Position numbers and translations under genes: made by a program. A model generated the notes under the pieces. It did no database searches, was not told where the DNA came from, and saw nothing but the letters and a program-made list of their open reading frames with translations. Shown here in pieces: positions 9,847-32,335 of a DNA stretch of 40,778 nucleotides; the first letter of the stretch is position 1; each line of letters starts with the position of its first letter. The DNA comes from a virus, in IMG/VR virus record IMGVR_UViG_3300023179_000224, positions 1 to 40,778 of that record, one strand, 5' to 3'.

Positions 9847-9854
9847 CATAAATA
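9847..9854 (+). promoter_or_regulatory. T4-late-like promoter box
   Basis: CATAAATA, one mismatch from TATAAATA, lies 28 bases before the ATG at 9883. The leader contains AAGAGAGAC as ribosome-binding site. This fits late expression of the structural gene. Confidence 0.6.
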
Positions 9855-9882: not shown

Positions 9883-12513
9883 ATGGCTTATACACATCCC
9901 AATGATACCAATTTAAAAAATCTACACCATGCCATGGAATACGATGCCAACGGAAATCCATCTGTTAGAGTTGATTCCAGTTTTGTGATGAATTCTGCGG
10001 CACATGATCCAGTTAATAAACTACGTATCAGTTCGCCACAGGCATTGATTGATACTGACTTTGAGTATGGATTGCAACCAACCAAATGGGAGCAATTAGC
10101 TCTGGCTAATAACAGACCCACCGCGTTTTATGATCCAACATCCCCATTGACAGTAACGAACGTCAGTGGTGGGGGTACTAGAGTGGTCACTGTTACTACC
10201 TCAACTACTCCTTCAGTGGGTTCTATAGTGTTAATTCAGGATAGTTTGGATTATAATGCCAATGGTTGGTTTTATGTTGATTCTGTTAACTCTGGAGTTT
10301 CTTTCACTTATACAGCAGACGCGGTTGTGAGTGCTGGATCAAAATTTGATCCGACTAGAACTTATGTATTTACAGGAAGCTTGTTCAGTCAATCTGCAAT
10401 ACCACTAAGCGCCTCTTCGGGCGCAGCTTTTTCCACTGGATCTACAACAGTGACATGCACTACAACTGGGGCACATGGTTTATATCCTGGTAACCTAATT
10501 TATGTATTTGGTACTACTGCCTCATCTAATCCTCCCAATGGTGCTTGGACAGTATTGACAACCCCAACTGCCAACACCTTTACTTTTGTAGTTGCCAATG
10601 CTCCTGTGGGTGCAGTAACTGCCAGTGCGGGTTCTACCGCTACACTTTATGCAAGACCCAATGGTTCGGTTACTCATCGTGCATTTGATGGTGGTGTAAG
10701 TTTCACAGCAGGCTCGTTATCTCCGGGCGCTGCCTTTATTAGGCAAACACGTAGATATTTCAGATATCAAAGTGGTAAAGGTATTCAATTCTCCACTGGT
10801 ACTTCATTAAAACCCGCAATCTTTTTTAGCCAGTTAACTTCATCGGGTACCACAGTTACCGTAACTTGCAATGCTGCACATCAACTATCTGTGGGCACCA
10901 TGGTGCTAGTAGAAAATGCCAGCCCCTCTGCGTTTAACGGATTATTTTCTATTGTTTCTGTGCCTGCAGATAATATCTTTACATATACCGCACTAACTGC
11001 CCCAGCTTCAAGCCCAGCTACAGGTTTCCCAATTAGAGTGACACCGTATTCATGGTATGGGTCGTCAAATCGTGTTGGTATGTTTGATCTACAAAATGGC
11101 TTATTTTATGAGTATGATGGACAAACACTGTACACAGTTCGTCGTTCAAGCGTAAATCAAATTTCTGGTTCAGTTGCTGTTACCAATGGTTCTCAAACAA
11201 TAACCGGAACCAATACACAATTTGCAGATCAACTTACCCTCGGGGACTACATTGTAATACGTGGATCCAGCTACAAAGTATTGTCTATAACCAGCCAAAC
11301 ATCTATGTTGATTACACCTGAATATAAGGGTATAACTCTAGCTTCTGGAGTTATCATATCTAAAACAGTAGACACCAAGGTTGCACAATCCGCCTGGACT
11401 GACCCCTGTGATGGGACCGGTCGAAGTAAATATAATCTGAATCTTTCAAGAATGCAAATGATTTATATGGATTATAGTTGGTACGGTGCAGGGGTAGCCA
11501 GATTTGGATTCAGAGGTGCAGACGGCGGAGTGACCTATGTAAACTCATTTGTGCATAATAACCAACAGTACGAGGCTTACATGCGATCAGGGAATTTACC
11601 TGCCCATTATGAGTCTTCTGCAGAATTGCCCATAACCAAACTTACAGCAACTATTAATAGTAGTGACACTACTGGCGCGCTAATATCAGTGAGTGACACC
11701 AGTAAATTCCCCAGTTCTGGTATATTGAGAGTGACCAATGCTGGTGCAACTGGTTCTATAGAGTACATTAGTTATTCAGCTAAAACCAGTACCAGTTTGA
11801 CCATATTGGCCAGAGCTCAAACGGGTGGTTCAGCTTCAGCTCAGACTTTTACATTTAGTGCCACTGCGCCAATAGGAGTAGAATTAGCATCACCATCAGC
11901 CGCTGCTGCAATCAATCACTGGGGAAGTTCAGTTATTATGGATGGTAGATTTGATGATGATAAAAGCCTAATTTTCAATACTGGTATGTCTACAACTGTA
12001 TCAGTTAATCCTGGCGCTACGCAACCATTGATCAGTATTAGGTTGGCTCCCAGTGTTGATAGTGGATTTACTGGGGTTTTGGGCGCCAGAGAAATTATCA
12101 ATCGAATGCAACTTAAACTAGACTCTATGGGTTTGTTGGCCAATGGTCCATTTTTGGTCAAAGCAAGATTAAATGGTAAAGCCAGCGGTGGAACATTTAC
12201 GTCTGCTGGTGGATCATCATTGGCTCAGATTGCCATTCATACCTCAGGACAAACAATAACTGGTGGTGAGGACGCGGCGGGATTTTATTCAGATTCCAAT
12301 GGTACCAATCAAACTTTGACTACACTGGACCTATCCCAAGTTAGAGATCTTGGAACCAGCATATTGGGAGGAGGGACAAATAATAATGTACCAACATCCA
12401 GCGCTAATTTGTATCCAGATGGGCCCGACGTTTTAACAATAACTGTGCAAAATATTGGGGCAACTTCACAAACTGCATTAGCTAGGTTAAGTTGGACTGA
12501 AGCACAAGCTTAA
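9883..12513 (+). CDS. Large virion structural protein (tail or fibre associated)
   Basis: An 876-residue protein. The first 80 residues contain NPSVRVDSSFVMNS and DTDFEYGLQPTKWE, a start I know from structural proteins of T4-like phages. Two related beta repeats follow (about residues 175-250 and 310-380: 'vTvtC..aH.L..G....v......NG.w.v..v....FTy'). A middle domain has aromatic motifs (WYGSSNRVGMFDLQNGLFYE, MIYMDYSWYGAGVARFGF), and the C-terminal 250 residues are Gly/Ser/Thr-rich. It has no signal peptide and no enzyme motif. The late box and RBS upstream support expression with virion genes. Its stop overlaps the stop of the convergent 12510-12716 gene. Confidence 0.75.
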   Translation: MAYTHPNDTNLKNLHHAMEYDANGNPSVRVDSSFVMNSAAHDPVNKLRISSPQALIDTDFEYGLQPTKWEQLALANNRPTAFYDPTSPLTVTNVSGGGTRVVTVTTSTTPSVGSIVLIQDSLDYNANGWFYVDSVNSGVSFTYTADAVVSAGSKFDPTRTYVFTGSLFSQSAIPLSASSGAAFSTGSTTVTCTTTGAHGLYPGNLIYVFGTTASSNPPNGAWTVLTTPTANTFTFVVANAPVGAVTASAGSTATLYARPNGSVTHRAFDGGVSFTAGSLSPGAAFIRQTRRYFRYQSGKGIQFSTGTSLKPAIFFSQLTSSGTTVTVTCNAAHQLSVGTMVLVENASPSAFNGLFSIVSVPADNIFTYTALTAPASSPATGFPIRVTPYSWYGSSNRVGMFDLQNGLFYEYDGQTLYTVRRSSVNQISGSVAVTNGSQTITGTNTQFADQLTLGDYIVIRGSSYKVLSITSQTSMLITPEYKGITLASGVIISKTVDTKVAQSAWTDPCDGTGRSKYNLNLSRMQMIYMDYSWYGAGVARFGFRGADGGVTYVNSFVHNNQQYEAYMRSGNLPAHYESSAELPITKLTATINSSDTTGALISVSDTSKFPSSGILRVTNAGATGSIEYISYSAKTSTSLTILARAQTGGSASAQTFTFSATAPIGVELASPSAAAAINHWGSSVIMDGRFDDDKSLIFNTGMSTTVSVNPGATQPLISIRLAPSVDSGFTGVLGAREIINRMQLKLDSMGLLANGPFLVKARLNGKASGGTFTSAGGSSLAQIAIHTSGQTITGGEDAAGFYSDSNGTNQTLTTLDLSQVRDLGTSILGGGTNNNVPTSSANLYPDGPDVLTITVQNIGATSQTALARLSWTEAQA

Positions 12514-18759: not shown

Positions 18760-18996
18760 TCACTTCTTGGCTTCAGCTGCTGGAGCAGTCTTCTTGGCCG
18801 AAGCTTTATTATCAGCTTTATGATCAGCCTTCTTTTCATGAGCAGCTGGTGCGCTAGCAGCTGGTTTGGCAGCACTGGCCATAACTGCTGGTGCACTGGC
18901 TGCTGGTTTAGCAGCGCTGGCTGCGGCCTTTGGGGCTTCTGCGGCCATTGCGGTTGCCGCAAATACAGCGGCGATAGATGCAACGATTGATTTCAT
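18760..18996 (-). CDS. Exported Ala/Lys/Pro-rich low-complexity protein
   Basis: A 78-residue protein: a signal peptide (MKSIVASIAAVFAATAMA, likely cleavage after AMA) followed by a mature part made almost only of Ala, Lys, Pro, Ser and Glu. A direct repeat SAAKPAASAPA occurs twice (about residues 27-37 and 41-51), then a basic tail KKADHKADNKASAKK. Similar histone-H1-like or periplasmic Ala/Lys-rich peptides occur in Burkholderiales. It may coat or neutralise something in the periplasm; no function is known. It has its own promoter and terminator. Confidence 0.65.
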   Translation of the reverse strand: MKSIVASIAAVFAATAMAAEAPKAAASAAKPAASAPAVMASAAKPAASAPAAHEKKADHKADNKASAKKTAPAAEAKK

Positions 18997-19074: not shown

Positions 19075-19092
19075 AGGCAACATTGGTTGCCT
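19075..19092 (-). terminator. Rho-independent terminator downstream of pstS
   Basis: AGGCAAC and GTTGCCT form a 7-bp stem around ATTG, followed on the minus strand by TTTTA. Between it and the pstS stop lies a GC-rich stretch of about 45 bases with no assigned role. Confidence 0.7.
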
Positions 19093-19139: not shown

Positions 19140-20135
19140 TTAAAATAATGACAGCTTTTTCCAATTATTTCGAATGTGATTTTTAACGGAGTCTGGTAAT
19201 ACCACGTAATCCAAGTCATCGGCAAACTGATTACCTTGAGTATATGCCCAATTAAAAAACTTCAATGCAGACTTAGTAGATGAAATATCATCGGGTTTTG
19301 CATAGATCAAGATAAATGTTGCCCCAGTTACTGGCCAAGTTTCCTTGCCAGCTTGATTGGTCAATATTTGAAAATAACTTTTATCCCAATCCACTCCTGC
19401 TGCGGCTGCACGAAACGCATCTTCTGTAGGGCTTACCCAGTTACCAGCAGCGTTTTGTATTTGAACATAATTCATTTTGTTCTGCTTGACATAAGCATAC
19501 TCAACGTAACCAATACTATTATTGATTTTGCCAACAAATGCAGCCACACCTTCATTACCTTTTCCACCAGCGCCAATAACCCAATTTACCGCAGTGCCTT
19601 CGCCAATTTTGGCCTTAAACTCCTGATTTACTTTGCTCAAATAATTGGTCCAAATAAAAGTGGTACCACTTCCATCTGCACGTCGAATAACGGTGATTGT
19701 TTCGTCAGGCAATGTTAAACTAGGATTTAATGCTTTGATCGCAGGGTCATTCCATTTTGATATTTTACCTAGATAAATTTCACCCAATAAGTAACCAGTA
19801 AGTCTCATTTTTCCTGTCTCAATTCCCTTGACATTGATCACAGGCACTACCCCTCCGATAACAGTGGGAAATTGAAACAAACCAGATTCTTTTAGCTTTT
19901 CGTCAGTTAAAGGCATGTCGGTGGCACCAAAAGTAACGGTTTTAGACTCTATTTGTTTGATGCCCGCACCCGATCCAACACTTTGATAATTGATTTTTAC
20001 CCCGGTGGCTTTGTTATACTCAGTTGCCCATTTAGAGTATAACGGAGCAGGAAATGTTGCCCCCGCTCCCACGATGTCTTGTGAGTGACAAGTTAAAGCA
20101 ACTGAAGCTAGTAATATCGCAAATAATTTTTTCAC
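19140..20135 (-). CDS. pstS: Phosphate ABC transporter substrate-binding protein PstS
   Basis: A 331-residue protein with a signal peptide (about residues 1-18) and the PstS core: GAGATFPAPLYSKW, SVGSGAGIKQIESKTVTFGA followed by TDMPL, and RRADGSGTTFIWTNYLS, which match the phosphate-contacting loops of E. coli PstS (GAGASFPAP, GSGGG, RADGSGTSF). It binds phosphate in the periplasm and hands it to the host PstCAB transporter; no pstC, pstA or pstB is present, so host partners are needed. Phages of cyanobacteria also carry pstS. The start is a GTG at 20135 with AAGGAG upstream. A PhoB-box-like direct repeat precedes it. Confidence 0.93.
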   Translation of the reverse strand: MKKLFAILLASVALTCHSQDIVGAGATFPAPLYSKWATEYNKATGVKINYQSVGSGAGIKQIESKTVTFGATDMPLTDEKLKESGLFQFPTVIGGVVPVINVKGIETGKMRLTGYLLGEIYLGKISKWNDPAIKALNPSLTLPDETITVIRRADGSGTTFIWTNYLSKVNQEFKAKIGEGTAVNWVIGAGGKGNEGVAAFVGKINNSIGYVEYAYVKQNKMNYVQIQNAAGNWVSPTEDAFRAAAAGVDWDKSYFQILTNQAGKETWPVTGATFILIYAKPDDISSTKSALKFFNWAYTQGNQFADDLDYVVLPDSVKNHIRNNWKKLSLF

Positions 20136-20179
20136 TGTATCTCCTTATATAAAATAGTGATACAGATATTTAAGCAAAC

Positions 20180-20201
20180 AAATATTACAAAAATATTACA
20201 A
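20180..20201 (-). promoter_or_regulatory. PhoB-box-like direct repeat upstream of pstS
   Basis: On the minus strand the sequence is TTGTAAT-ATTT-TTGTAAT-ATTT: two identical 11-base units. PhoB binds 11-base repeats of a CTGTCAT-like 7-mer plus four A/T bases. A TTAAAT -10-like hexamer (20168-20173) lies ten bases after the second 7-mer, the geometry of E. coli Pho promoters, where the Pho box replaces the -35. Confidence 0.7.
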
Positions 20202-20224: not shown

Positions 20225-20506
20225 TCATTTTGCTAAAATTTGATAGGTCTCACCAGAACCCAGTACACATGCTATCTTGTTATCAAATTCTATTAAAGTC
20301 CAAGTGCCAGTCTTATCATTGATCAGTAATCCAAAGTTATTGTTTGGGCTTTTTCCAATCCAAATTGGTTTTTCACGATAGTCTGAATCTGTCAATGCAG
20401 AAATTACTGATTCAGCTTTGTCACATAACACGGTTTTATTGGCTTTCATAGGTTCTGCAAGTGCAGAAATTGAAGCTAGTAAAAGCAAACTCAAAAAGAA
20501 TTTCAT
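20225..20506 (-). CDS. Small exported protein, unknown function
   Basis: A 93-residue protein with a clear signal peptide (MKFFLSLLLLASISALA, cleavage before EP). The mature part has two cysteines (CDKAESVI and IACVLGSGE) that could form a disulphide, and strands such as NFGLLINDKTGTWTLIEF. I recall similar small periplasmic proteins in bacteria but no function. It sits just upstream of the pstS promoter and starts next to a divergent inverted-repeat promoter region shared with the plus-strand lipoprotein gene. Confidence 0.6.
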   Translation of the reverse strand: MKFFLSLLLLASISALAEPMKANKTVLCDKAESVISALTDSDYREKPIWIGKSPNNNFGLLINDKTGTWTLIEFDNKIACVLGSGETYQILAK

Positions 20507-31098: not shown

Positions 31099-31106
31099 TA
31101 TTTAGT
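31099..31106 (-). promoter_or_regulatory. Late-like box five bases before a start codon
   Basis: ACTAAATA on the minus strand (two mismatches from TATAAATA), partly overlapping the stop of the 31106 gene. The ATG at 31093 begins after exactly five bases, as with SOD and the plus-strand lipoprotein gene. Confidence 0.4.
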
Positions 31107-32335
31107 TAAGTAAAGTATGGATCAATGATTACCAGGGTTCCATCCCTGCGCTGCATTACATTTTCAGTATGCAGATCCCAGCCTAATCCATTTTTTAATC
31201 CAATGTGGTATAGTCTACACATTGTCTGATATAAGATACCATATTGTTTGTAAGTTGCCGAATCTGAGAATTTTTCTGTAACTAATCTGGGCATGTCAGA
31301 CATACTGGGATCAAGTTTCCAAGTTTCACTCATTTTTAGTTCTTTAACTACACTAGCCCAACTTGCACGAATCTTGGCTACATCACTTAATATCCAAACC
31401 ATTAATTGTTCAAAGCTGTTACTGTCAATGGGTTTCAATCTTTCCATGGCAATTTGCCTATAGGAAACACCATTGAGTACAAAAACCGTGTGGTGTTCTC
31501 CACCAATGTTTATAAATTTTGGCAAGTTAGGCAATTCTGAATGATGTTTGCAAAAGTTGTAAAAAGTTAAGAACCCACGATCAGCATCTAGTGCTCGACT
31601 TGGAATTGTTCTAGACGGCATTAAGATTTTAATTACCTTGTCTTCGTCCTTGGCCCAAACTGTTGAGTCACCACCTGACCCTATGTTTTCATATCCCAGT
31701 TCCCTGAGTTTCCTAAATATTTTTAAAGTATTACTGGATTCTTCAGTTTCGTCAAGCCTTCGATCGGGATCGTACAGTGGATGATCTTGATCATATTGCT
31801 GTTTTACTGGGATAACTAGCCCATGGCGGCGTCTTTGGTATTCCAGTTCATTTTTAATCTCTGTTCTTGGGTCTGAGATTAATGCTCGCCAAACTTTACC
31901 CAAATTGTGGTCGTTGGTCCATTGGCTTACTAAATTTTGATTGACTGGTAACCAAATTTCTATTTTTCTAACATATTTTCTAAATGGGCTGACTCCGCCT
32001 TTGATCAATGTTTCAAATCTATCTGTATCATGCCAAGCACTTCGGCGTTGAAATTCATCACGAGATGTTTCTGGGGGCTCACCTTTGAACCAGTCAGTGG
32101 GAGGTAAACGCCTACGACCAATTTCTTGACGTAATAATTTTTGATCTATACAAAAAATCACACCACTGTGACGCATATTTTTCAAATACCCCAATGCATA
32201 ATCATAACTACGTGTGGTGCTTACATTATTGCCATGACCAATGGAGTCTGATTGCCAAATTGACAATGCACTGGGAATAGAAGTAACATGATATAAGTTA
32301 TCATCTTGCCACTCGTGCAAATCATACAATCTCAT
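31106..32335 (-). CDS. Kinase-like protein with N-terminal ART-like domain
   Basis: A 409-residue protein with two parts. Residues about 10-150 begin LYHVTSIPSALSIWQSDSIG, then VSTTRSYDYALGYL and VIFCIDQKLL. This 'LYHvTs...A..I.......sTTRs......fviD...L' order resembles ADP-ribosyltransferase-fold (ART-like) domains in phage proteins. Residues about 215-409 look like a protein-kinase fold: a glycine loop IGSGGDSTVWAKDEDKVIKI, AMERL in the hinge, GWDLHTENVM with Asp387 and Asn392, and VIIDPYF with Asp405 as the metal-binding residue. The N-terminus MRLYDLHEW carries only a loose version of the leader. Both assignments are by eye; the ART part is tentative. Confidence 0.6.
   Translation of the reverse strand: MRLYDLHEWQDDNLYHVTSIPSALSIWQSDSIGHGNNVSTTRSYDYALGYLKNMRHSGVIFCIDQKLLRQEIGRRRLPPTDWFKGEPPETSRDEFQRRSAWHDTDRFETLIKGGVSPFRKYVRKIEIWLPVNQNLVSQWTNDHNLGKVWRALISDPRTEIKNELEYQRRRHGLVIPVKQQYDQDHPLYDPDRRLDETEESSNTLKIFRKLRELGYENIGSGGDSTVWAKDEDKVIKILMPSRTIPSRALDADRGFLTFYNFCKHHSELPNLPKFINIGGEHHTVFVLNGVSYRQIAMERLKPIDSNSFEQLMVWILSDVAKIRASWASVVKELKMSETWKLDPSMSDMPRLVTEKFSDSATYKQYGILYQTMCRLYHIGLKNGLGWDLHTENVMQRRDGTLVIIDPYFT

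Follow-up and report, generated by a model that had tools for sequence, protein, structure and literature searches.

Control of a phage pstS gene by the host has a known precedent in marine cyanophages. In P-SSM2 and its relatives, pstS is under the control of the host PhoBR system, and it has also been warned that Pho boxes predicted in silico in phages are unreliable and often not bound (PMC10976474). PhoB acts by recruiting region 4 of sigma70 (PMC4496699). The E. coli phoA promoter reads CTGTCAT-AAAG-TTGTCAC-N10-TATAGT, with ten bases between the tandem and the -10 hexamer, and the ten-base rule also holds for E. coli pstS at its promoter-proximal tandem. A T4-type late promoter is an 8-bp box, TATAAATA, that starts at -13 without a -35 element and is used with gp55, gp33, and gp45 (PMC2988020). 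Overlapping early and late promoters have been proposed in the phages RB49 and S-PM2 (PMC2984593). The promoter analyzed here might combine elements of several of these systems.

The window, which is the whole 40,778-base stretch of viral DNA that we analyzed, encodes a periplasmic phosphate-binding protein (Table 1). Profile searches confirmed the initial annotation of this gene as pstS (PBP_like_2 PF12849, E=7.2e-32; phrog_5385, E=1.5e-67). The motifs GAGATFP, GSGAG, and RADGSGT are nearly or fully invariant across 10 phage PstS sequences, as expected of a phosphate-binding protein. There is no pstCAB beside the phage gene, and an intrinsic terminator follows it. Therefore, pstS is a single-gene unit. 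Just upstream of it is a gene for a 93-aa secreted protein (20225-20506), which has a weak match to phrog_25396 and CTAAATA 25 nt before its start. On the other side, a small secreted protein rich in Ala, Lys, and Pro (18760-18996) has a near-perfect sigma70 promoter in front of it (TTGACC-17-TATAAT, 19068-19040). Elsewhere in the window, the C-terminal half of the protein encoded at 31106-32335 weakly resembles phrog_15752, a phage kinase family annotated as an inhibitor of host transcription, and relatives of this protein occur in many large phages.

Two identical 11-base repeats at PhoB geometry had been reported upstream of pstS. A repeat search found them as two 100% identical copies of TTGTAATATTT at 20180-20190 and 20191-20201 on the minus strand. 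Read on that strand, the order is TTGTAAT ATTT TTGTAAT ATTT (20201..20180), GTTTGC (20179..20174), and TTAAATA (20173..20167). This provides the two 7-bp direct half-sites with an 11-bp period that characterize a Pho box. The half-site TTGTAAT is identical to CTGTCAT at 5/7 positions, and its TGTAA variant is also found in some host pstS boxes. The pattern YTGTMAY-N4-YTGTMAY has one match in the 40,778 bases, compared with 0.03 expected, and was present in 3/100 dinucleotide shuffles. Looser matches with up to two mismatches were not in excess (11 versus 17 by chance). Because near matches are no commoner than chance, the tandem site is unique in the window. TTAAAT does lie ten bases past the second 7-mer, the same spacing as in E. 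coli phoA, and the T at 20173 that precedes TAAATA is what allows the hexamer to be read in the sigma70 register. However, it does not have the TANNNT form of a sigma70 -10 element at this distance, and a sigma70 promoter scan returned none for pstS.

Table 1. Positions of the pstS promoter elements and related features in the window
Feature	Position	Strand	Details and evidence
pstS, 331-aa periplasmic phosphate-binding protein	19140..20135	-	Signal peptide; GTG start at 20135; PF12849, phrog_5385
Intrinsic terminator, AGGCAACCAATGTTGCCT then TTTT	19075..19092	-	3' of pstS
Pho box half-site 1, TTGTAAT	20195..20201	-	Pattern match; column conservation across 31 aligned phage promoters
Pho box half-site 2, TTGTAAT	20184..20190	-	11 bp past half-site 1; tandem in 40/52 distinct phage pstS upstreams
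10-nt spacer, ATTTGTTTGC	20174..20183	-	Half-site 2 to TTAAATA; 3' end TGC, extended -10-like TG
TAAATA, T4-type late-promoter core	20167..20172	-	Invariant at same offset in 31 phage promoters; 0/88 host promoters
Shine-Dalgarno of pstS, AAGGAG	20141..20146	-	Sequence reading
Late-promoter-like element, CATAAATA	9847..9854	+	34 nt upstream of 876-aa virion structural gene
876-aa virion structural gene	9883-12513		phrog_5838, E=7e-231

We extended the analysis to PstS relatives from IMG/VR, 23 at first and then 80, whose upstream regions collapsed to 52 distinct sequences. Five phage-collection records that look like bacterial DNA were set aside (H1-H5, Campylobacter phage A11a/A18a and Salmonella contigs; PstS, 54-56%). 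A PhoB-type tandem was found in 40/52 distinct upstream regions (best score ≥15.8), and in shuffled upstream regions the best score reached 16.4 in 0.15% and 15 in 2.6% of trials. The tandem is kept while the flanking genes and sequences differ, which argues that the box is under selection. In 10 phage records of up to 167 kb, the strict pattern occurred once each in eight and was absent from the other two and from reversed controls. With at most one strict box per phage genome, the box is tied to pstS and not to a wider phage regulon. Such a regulon was considered and rejected, as every genome scanned was without a second strict box. In two of the pstS upstream regions (L196 and L197), four TTGTTNC-like repeats with 11-bp spacing stand where the Pho box usually is, and TTATAGAT lies downstream of them; these repeats are perhaps a diverged Pho box.

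The nearest cellular PstS proteins come from Comamonadaceae and other Burkholderiales (Rhodoferax, Curvibacter, Variovorax, and Limnohabitans; 64-70%), and PhoB was above the family cutoff in 4/4 near-host genomes tested. This suggests that the host is a freshwater Burkholderiales bacterium. The idea of a proteobacterial phage with a PhoB-type tandem on pstS is upheld by this link and by the conservation of the tandem across lineages. A good tandem was also present in 88/113 distinct Burkholderiales pstS upstream regions. Exactly ten bases past it, 82 of these 88 have TANNNT (TAGAGT, TAAAGT, TACAGT, and others), and none of the 88 has TAAATA within 40 bases of the tandem. In a second host set (30 genomes drawn from the phylum), TAAATA was again absent (0/18), and TANNNT was at offset 10 in only 9/18. 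Host half-sites are mostly TGTCA, whereas phage half-sites are mostly TGTAA.

Phage and host promoters share the tandem geometry but differ in what follows it: TANNNT in the hosts (82/88) versus TAAATA in the phages (38/40 with a Pho box). The TTAAAT hexamer proposed as the -10 element is present, but the conserved element in the relatives is TAAATA (20172..20167 in the window). In 31 promoters the offset of TAAATA from a 7-mer is 11; in the remainder it is 10 or a full 11-bp turn more (10+11). When the 31 were aligned, the six TAAATA columns were 100% conserved and the 11-base spacer columns were variable. TANNNT at offset 10 was found in just 1/40 phage promoters (G001), and TAAATA is there too, one turn further. 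If the 8-bp late box starts at -13, TAAATA covers -11 to -6, whereas the sigma70 hexamer covers -12 to -7, one base further upstream. Judged from this register, a late promoter would need just this one-base shift from host to phage if the start site stayed the same. In the same implied register, the window has the TAAATA core of the T4-type box, but its -13/-12 bases are CT and not TA.

The same element stands before virion genes of these phages. In the relatives, TAAATA occurs at about 7 to 27 times the genome rate within 18 to 45 nt upstream of genes. An antisense TAAATA control was elevated there as well, owing to the high AT content of upstream regions, yet it was 3 to 5 times lower in the larger genomes. 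Nine genes behind TAAATA were scanned and five could be assigned: two baseplate-wedge, one tail-fibre-like, and two virion structural. The enrichment applies only to NTAAATA in start-proximal positions and is clearest in larger genomes; the full T4 box is not enriched in the window (1 versus 3.9 expected). In front of early-type genes in the window, TTGACA-N17-TATAAT takes the place of TAAATA. Two further phage pstS genes (L023 and L160) have TAAATA 28 to 29 nt before the start and no Pho box, which is a late promoter alone. Upstream of genes in G001 and G007 (L105-L113, L132), there is a strong enrichment of an extended -10 motif, TTGTGCTATA, which represents a second promoter class in the lineage.

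A late promoter of this type needs a late sigma factor. Of 20 long pstS contigs, 13 encode a late sigma of the gp55 type (phrog_12791 or phrog_234), among them every contig >200 kb. No such sigma was found in the window's own 40-kb fragment. The nearest relative, a 107-kb contig (G231) with a structural gene 79% identical to that of the window, encodes gp55 (E=6e-88), and there is no pstS in its 107 kb. We infer from the relatives that the phage in the window has gp55. The gp33 profile (phrog_254), which may be weak, detected gp33 in 2/12 T4-like genomes, G018 (L175) and G024 (L208), and none in nine Pho-boxed genomes. The numbers are small, but in G018 and G024 pstS lacks the combined promoter of Pho box and TAAATA.

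In a maximum-likelihood tree of 103 PstS sequences, the phage proteins form three or more groups, with starred branches between them. Clade A, which includes the window, adjoins Comamonadaceae, clade B (17 sequences) adjoins other Burkholderiales, and the third group is a pair. The Pho box with TAAATA at offset 11 is found in both clade A and clade B. Phages captured pstS at least three times, and two of these captures have the Pho-late design. There are two explanations: the design had two origins, or phages exchange promoters, possibly apart from pstS.

We propose that this is a composite promoter, in which a host PhoB-type box is mounted on a phage late promoter that possibly doubles as a sigma70 promoter, and we give this reading a probability of about 70%. 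The composite architecture emerged by comparison and could not have been recognized in the window by itself. The analysis establishes the elements, with their fixed geometry, conservation, and recurrence, as well as gp55 in relatives and PhoB in near-host genomes; binding of PhoB, use of gp55, the timing, and the physiological benefit are what we infer from these. The host-type tandem would fill the -35 region, which is normally without an element in T4-type late promoters, and the -10 region would be the late element N-TAAATA, read by a gp55-like late sigma of the phage. When a Burkholderiales host is starved of phosphate, PhoB in its phosphorylated form would bind the box and increase transcription of the phage pstS. 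The exported PstS might then feed the PstCAB transporter of the host, which is proposed because no pstCAB adjoins the phage gene. Through the late element, pstS expression would be linked to replication and the late stage, when phosphate demand should peak. The element could also give late expression independently of PhoB, and the initial proposal that phosphate uptake is raised only in starved hosts is not supported. The most economical version has a dual-use -10 region, used by PhoB with sigma70 first and by the gp55 polymerase later, much like the overlapping promoters of RB49 and S-PM2.

The strongest competitor is a plain promoter for PhoB and host sigma70, with TTAAAT as a weak -10 element with an extended TG and TAAATA as an AT-rich coincidence of shared ancestry. 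We consider this distinctly unlikely. The ten-base spacing is exact and the known mechanism of PhoB uses sigma70 region 4, but the TANNNT that 82/88 hosts have at offset 10 is in only 1/40 phages. That one, G001, has TGCTATTAT at offset 10, but it also has TAAATA one turn further. Neither the T at -11 nor the A at -6 is needed by sigma70, yet both are invariant in 31 divergent phage promoters, and the design is present in two PstS capture events. Even so, there are traces of sigma70. Both T at -12 and an extended TG are typical of sigma70. Compared with other late-type promoters of the same phages, the base before TAAATA in pstS promoters is T, G, or C and never A (A in 0/38 versus 55/99), T is enriched (20/38 versus 3/99), and TG is more often at the extended -10 place (14/38 versus 9/99), although all of these comparisons are inflated by relatedness, the traits needing 8 to 9 changes on the tree. 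The absence of A and the enrichment of T and TG hint that sigma70 still matters at these promoters. This would fit either a dual-use -10 region, serving sigma70 with PhoB and then gp55, or a weakened late promoter dependent on PhoB.

A pure late promoter, with the tandem serving a phage regulator or another OmpR/PhoB-type host regulator, is highly improbable. The phage half-sites do prefer TGTAA to TGTCA, and L023 and L160 carry TAAATA without a Pho box. Against this, the geometry, the core TGT[AC]A[TC], and the pstS-exclusive placement all match host pstS Pho boxes, some of which also use TGTAA. The region is AT-rich and the repeat was picked by eye, but a chance tandem is rejected outright by its rarity and its conservation in 40 distinct phage promoters.

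A bolder form of the composite promoter would have host PhoB directly activate the gp55 polymerase, replacing the phage co-activator at the beta-flap. Sigma70 region 4 is absent from gp55, and gp33 is a mimic of region 4. Nothing like a C-terminal region 4 was evident by eye in long gp55 variants, and gp33 was not detectable in the Pho-boxed genomes by the profile used. We think that this direct activation is somewhat unlikely. If true, a late viral gene would be gated by the nutrient state of the host via a bacterial two-component regulator.

The composite promoter would extend PhoB control of phage pstS from marine cyanophages to large T4-like phages whose nearest cellular PstS proteins are from Burkholderiales, in at least two separate captures. 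The design would not be a copy of the host promoter: the host switch was apparently retained and the host -10 swapped for a phage late element. A host two-component regulator that drives a viral late polymerase is now testable, as is the way in which phages time nutrient genes. In the part of the literature covered, we did not find any T4-type late promoter described as carrying the box of a host regulator.

Compared with known systems, the promoter in the window resembles host Pho promoters (E. coli pstS and phoA, Comamonadaceae pstS) in that two 7-bp half-sites with an 11-bp period replace the -35 element and a -10-like hexamer follows after ten bases. However, TANNNT at offset 10 and mostly TGTCA half-sites in the hosts become TAAATA at offset 11 and mostly TGTAA in the phages. 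RB49 and S-PM2 likewise have sigma70-type and late-type elements on one gene, but no host transcription factor box is described there (PMC2984593). T4-type late promoters have the same TAAATA core, which lies at -11 to -6 if the register is as implied, and the same placement before virion genes, and relatives of the window encode gp55. They have TA at -13/-12 where the window has CT; Aeh1 late promoters are reported with a/gC there. They also have no upstream activator site, whereas one is predicted here, and gp33 was not detected in the Pho-boxed relatives. Cyanophage pstS is likewise a phage gene with a host Pho box, slaved to the phosphate sensor of the host, and the initial annotation saw the same logic in the window. 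At the level of the promoter, this is not supported. Cyanophages have a cyanobacterial CTTAAC-like box, a DUF680-pstS operon, and a sigma70-like extended -10 element, TGCTATATT, whereas the window has a proteobacterial-type box, a single-gene pstS, and the late-promoter core TAAATA.
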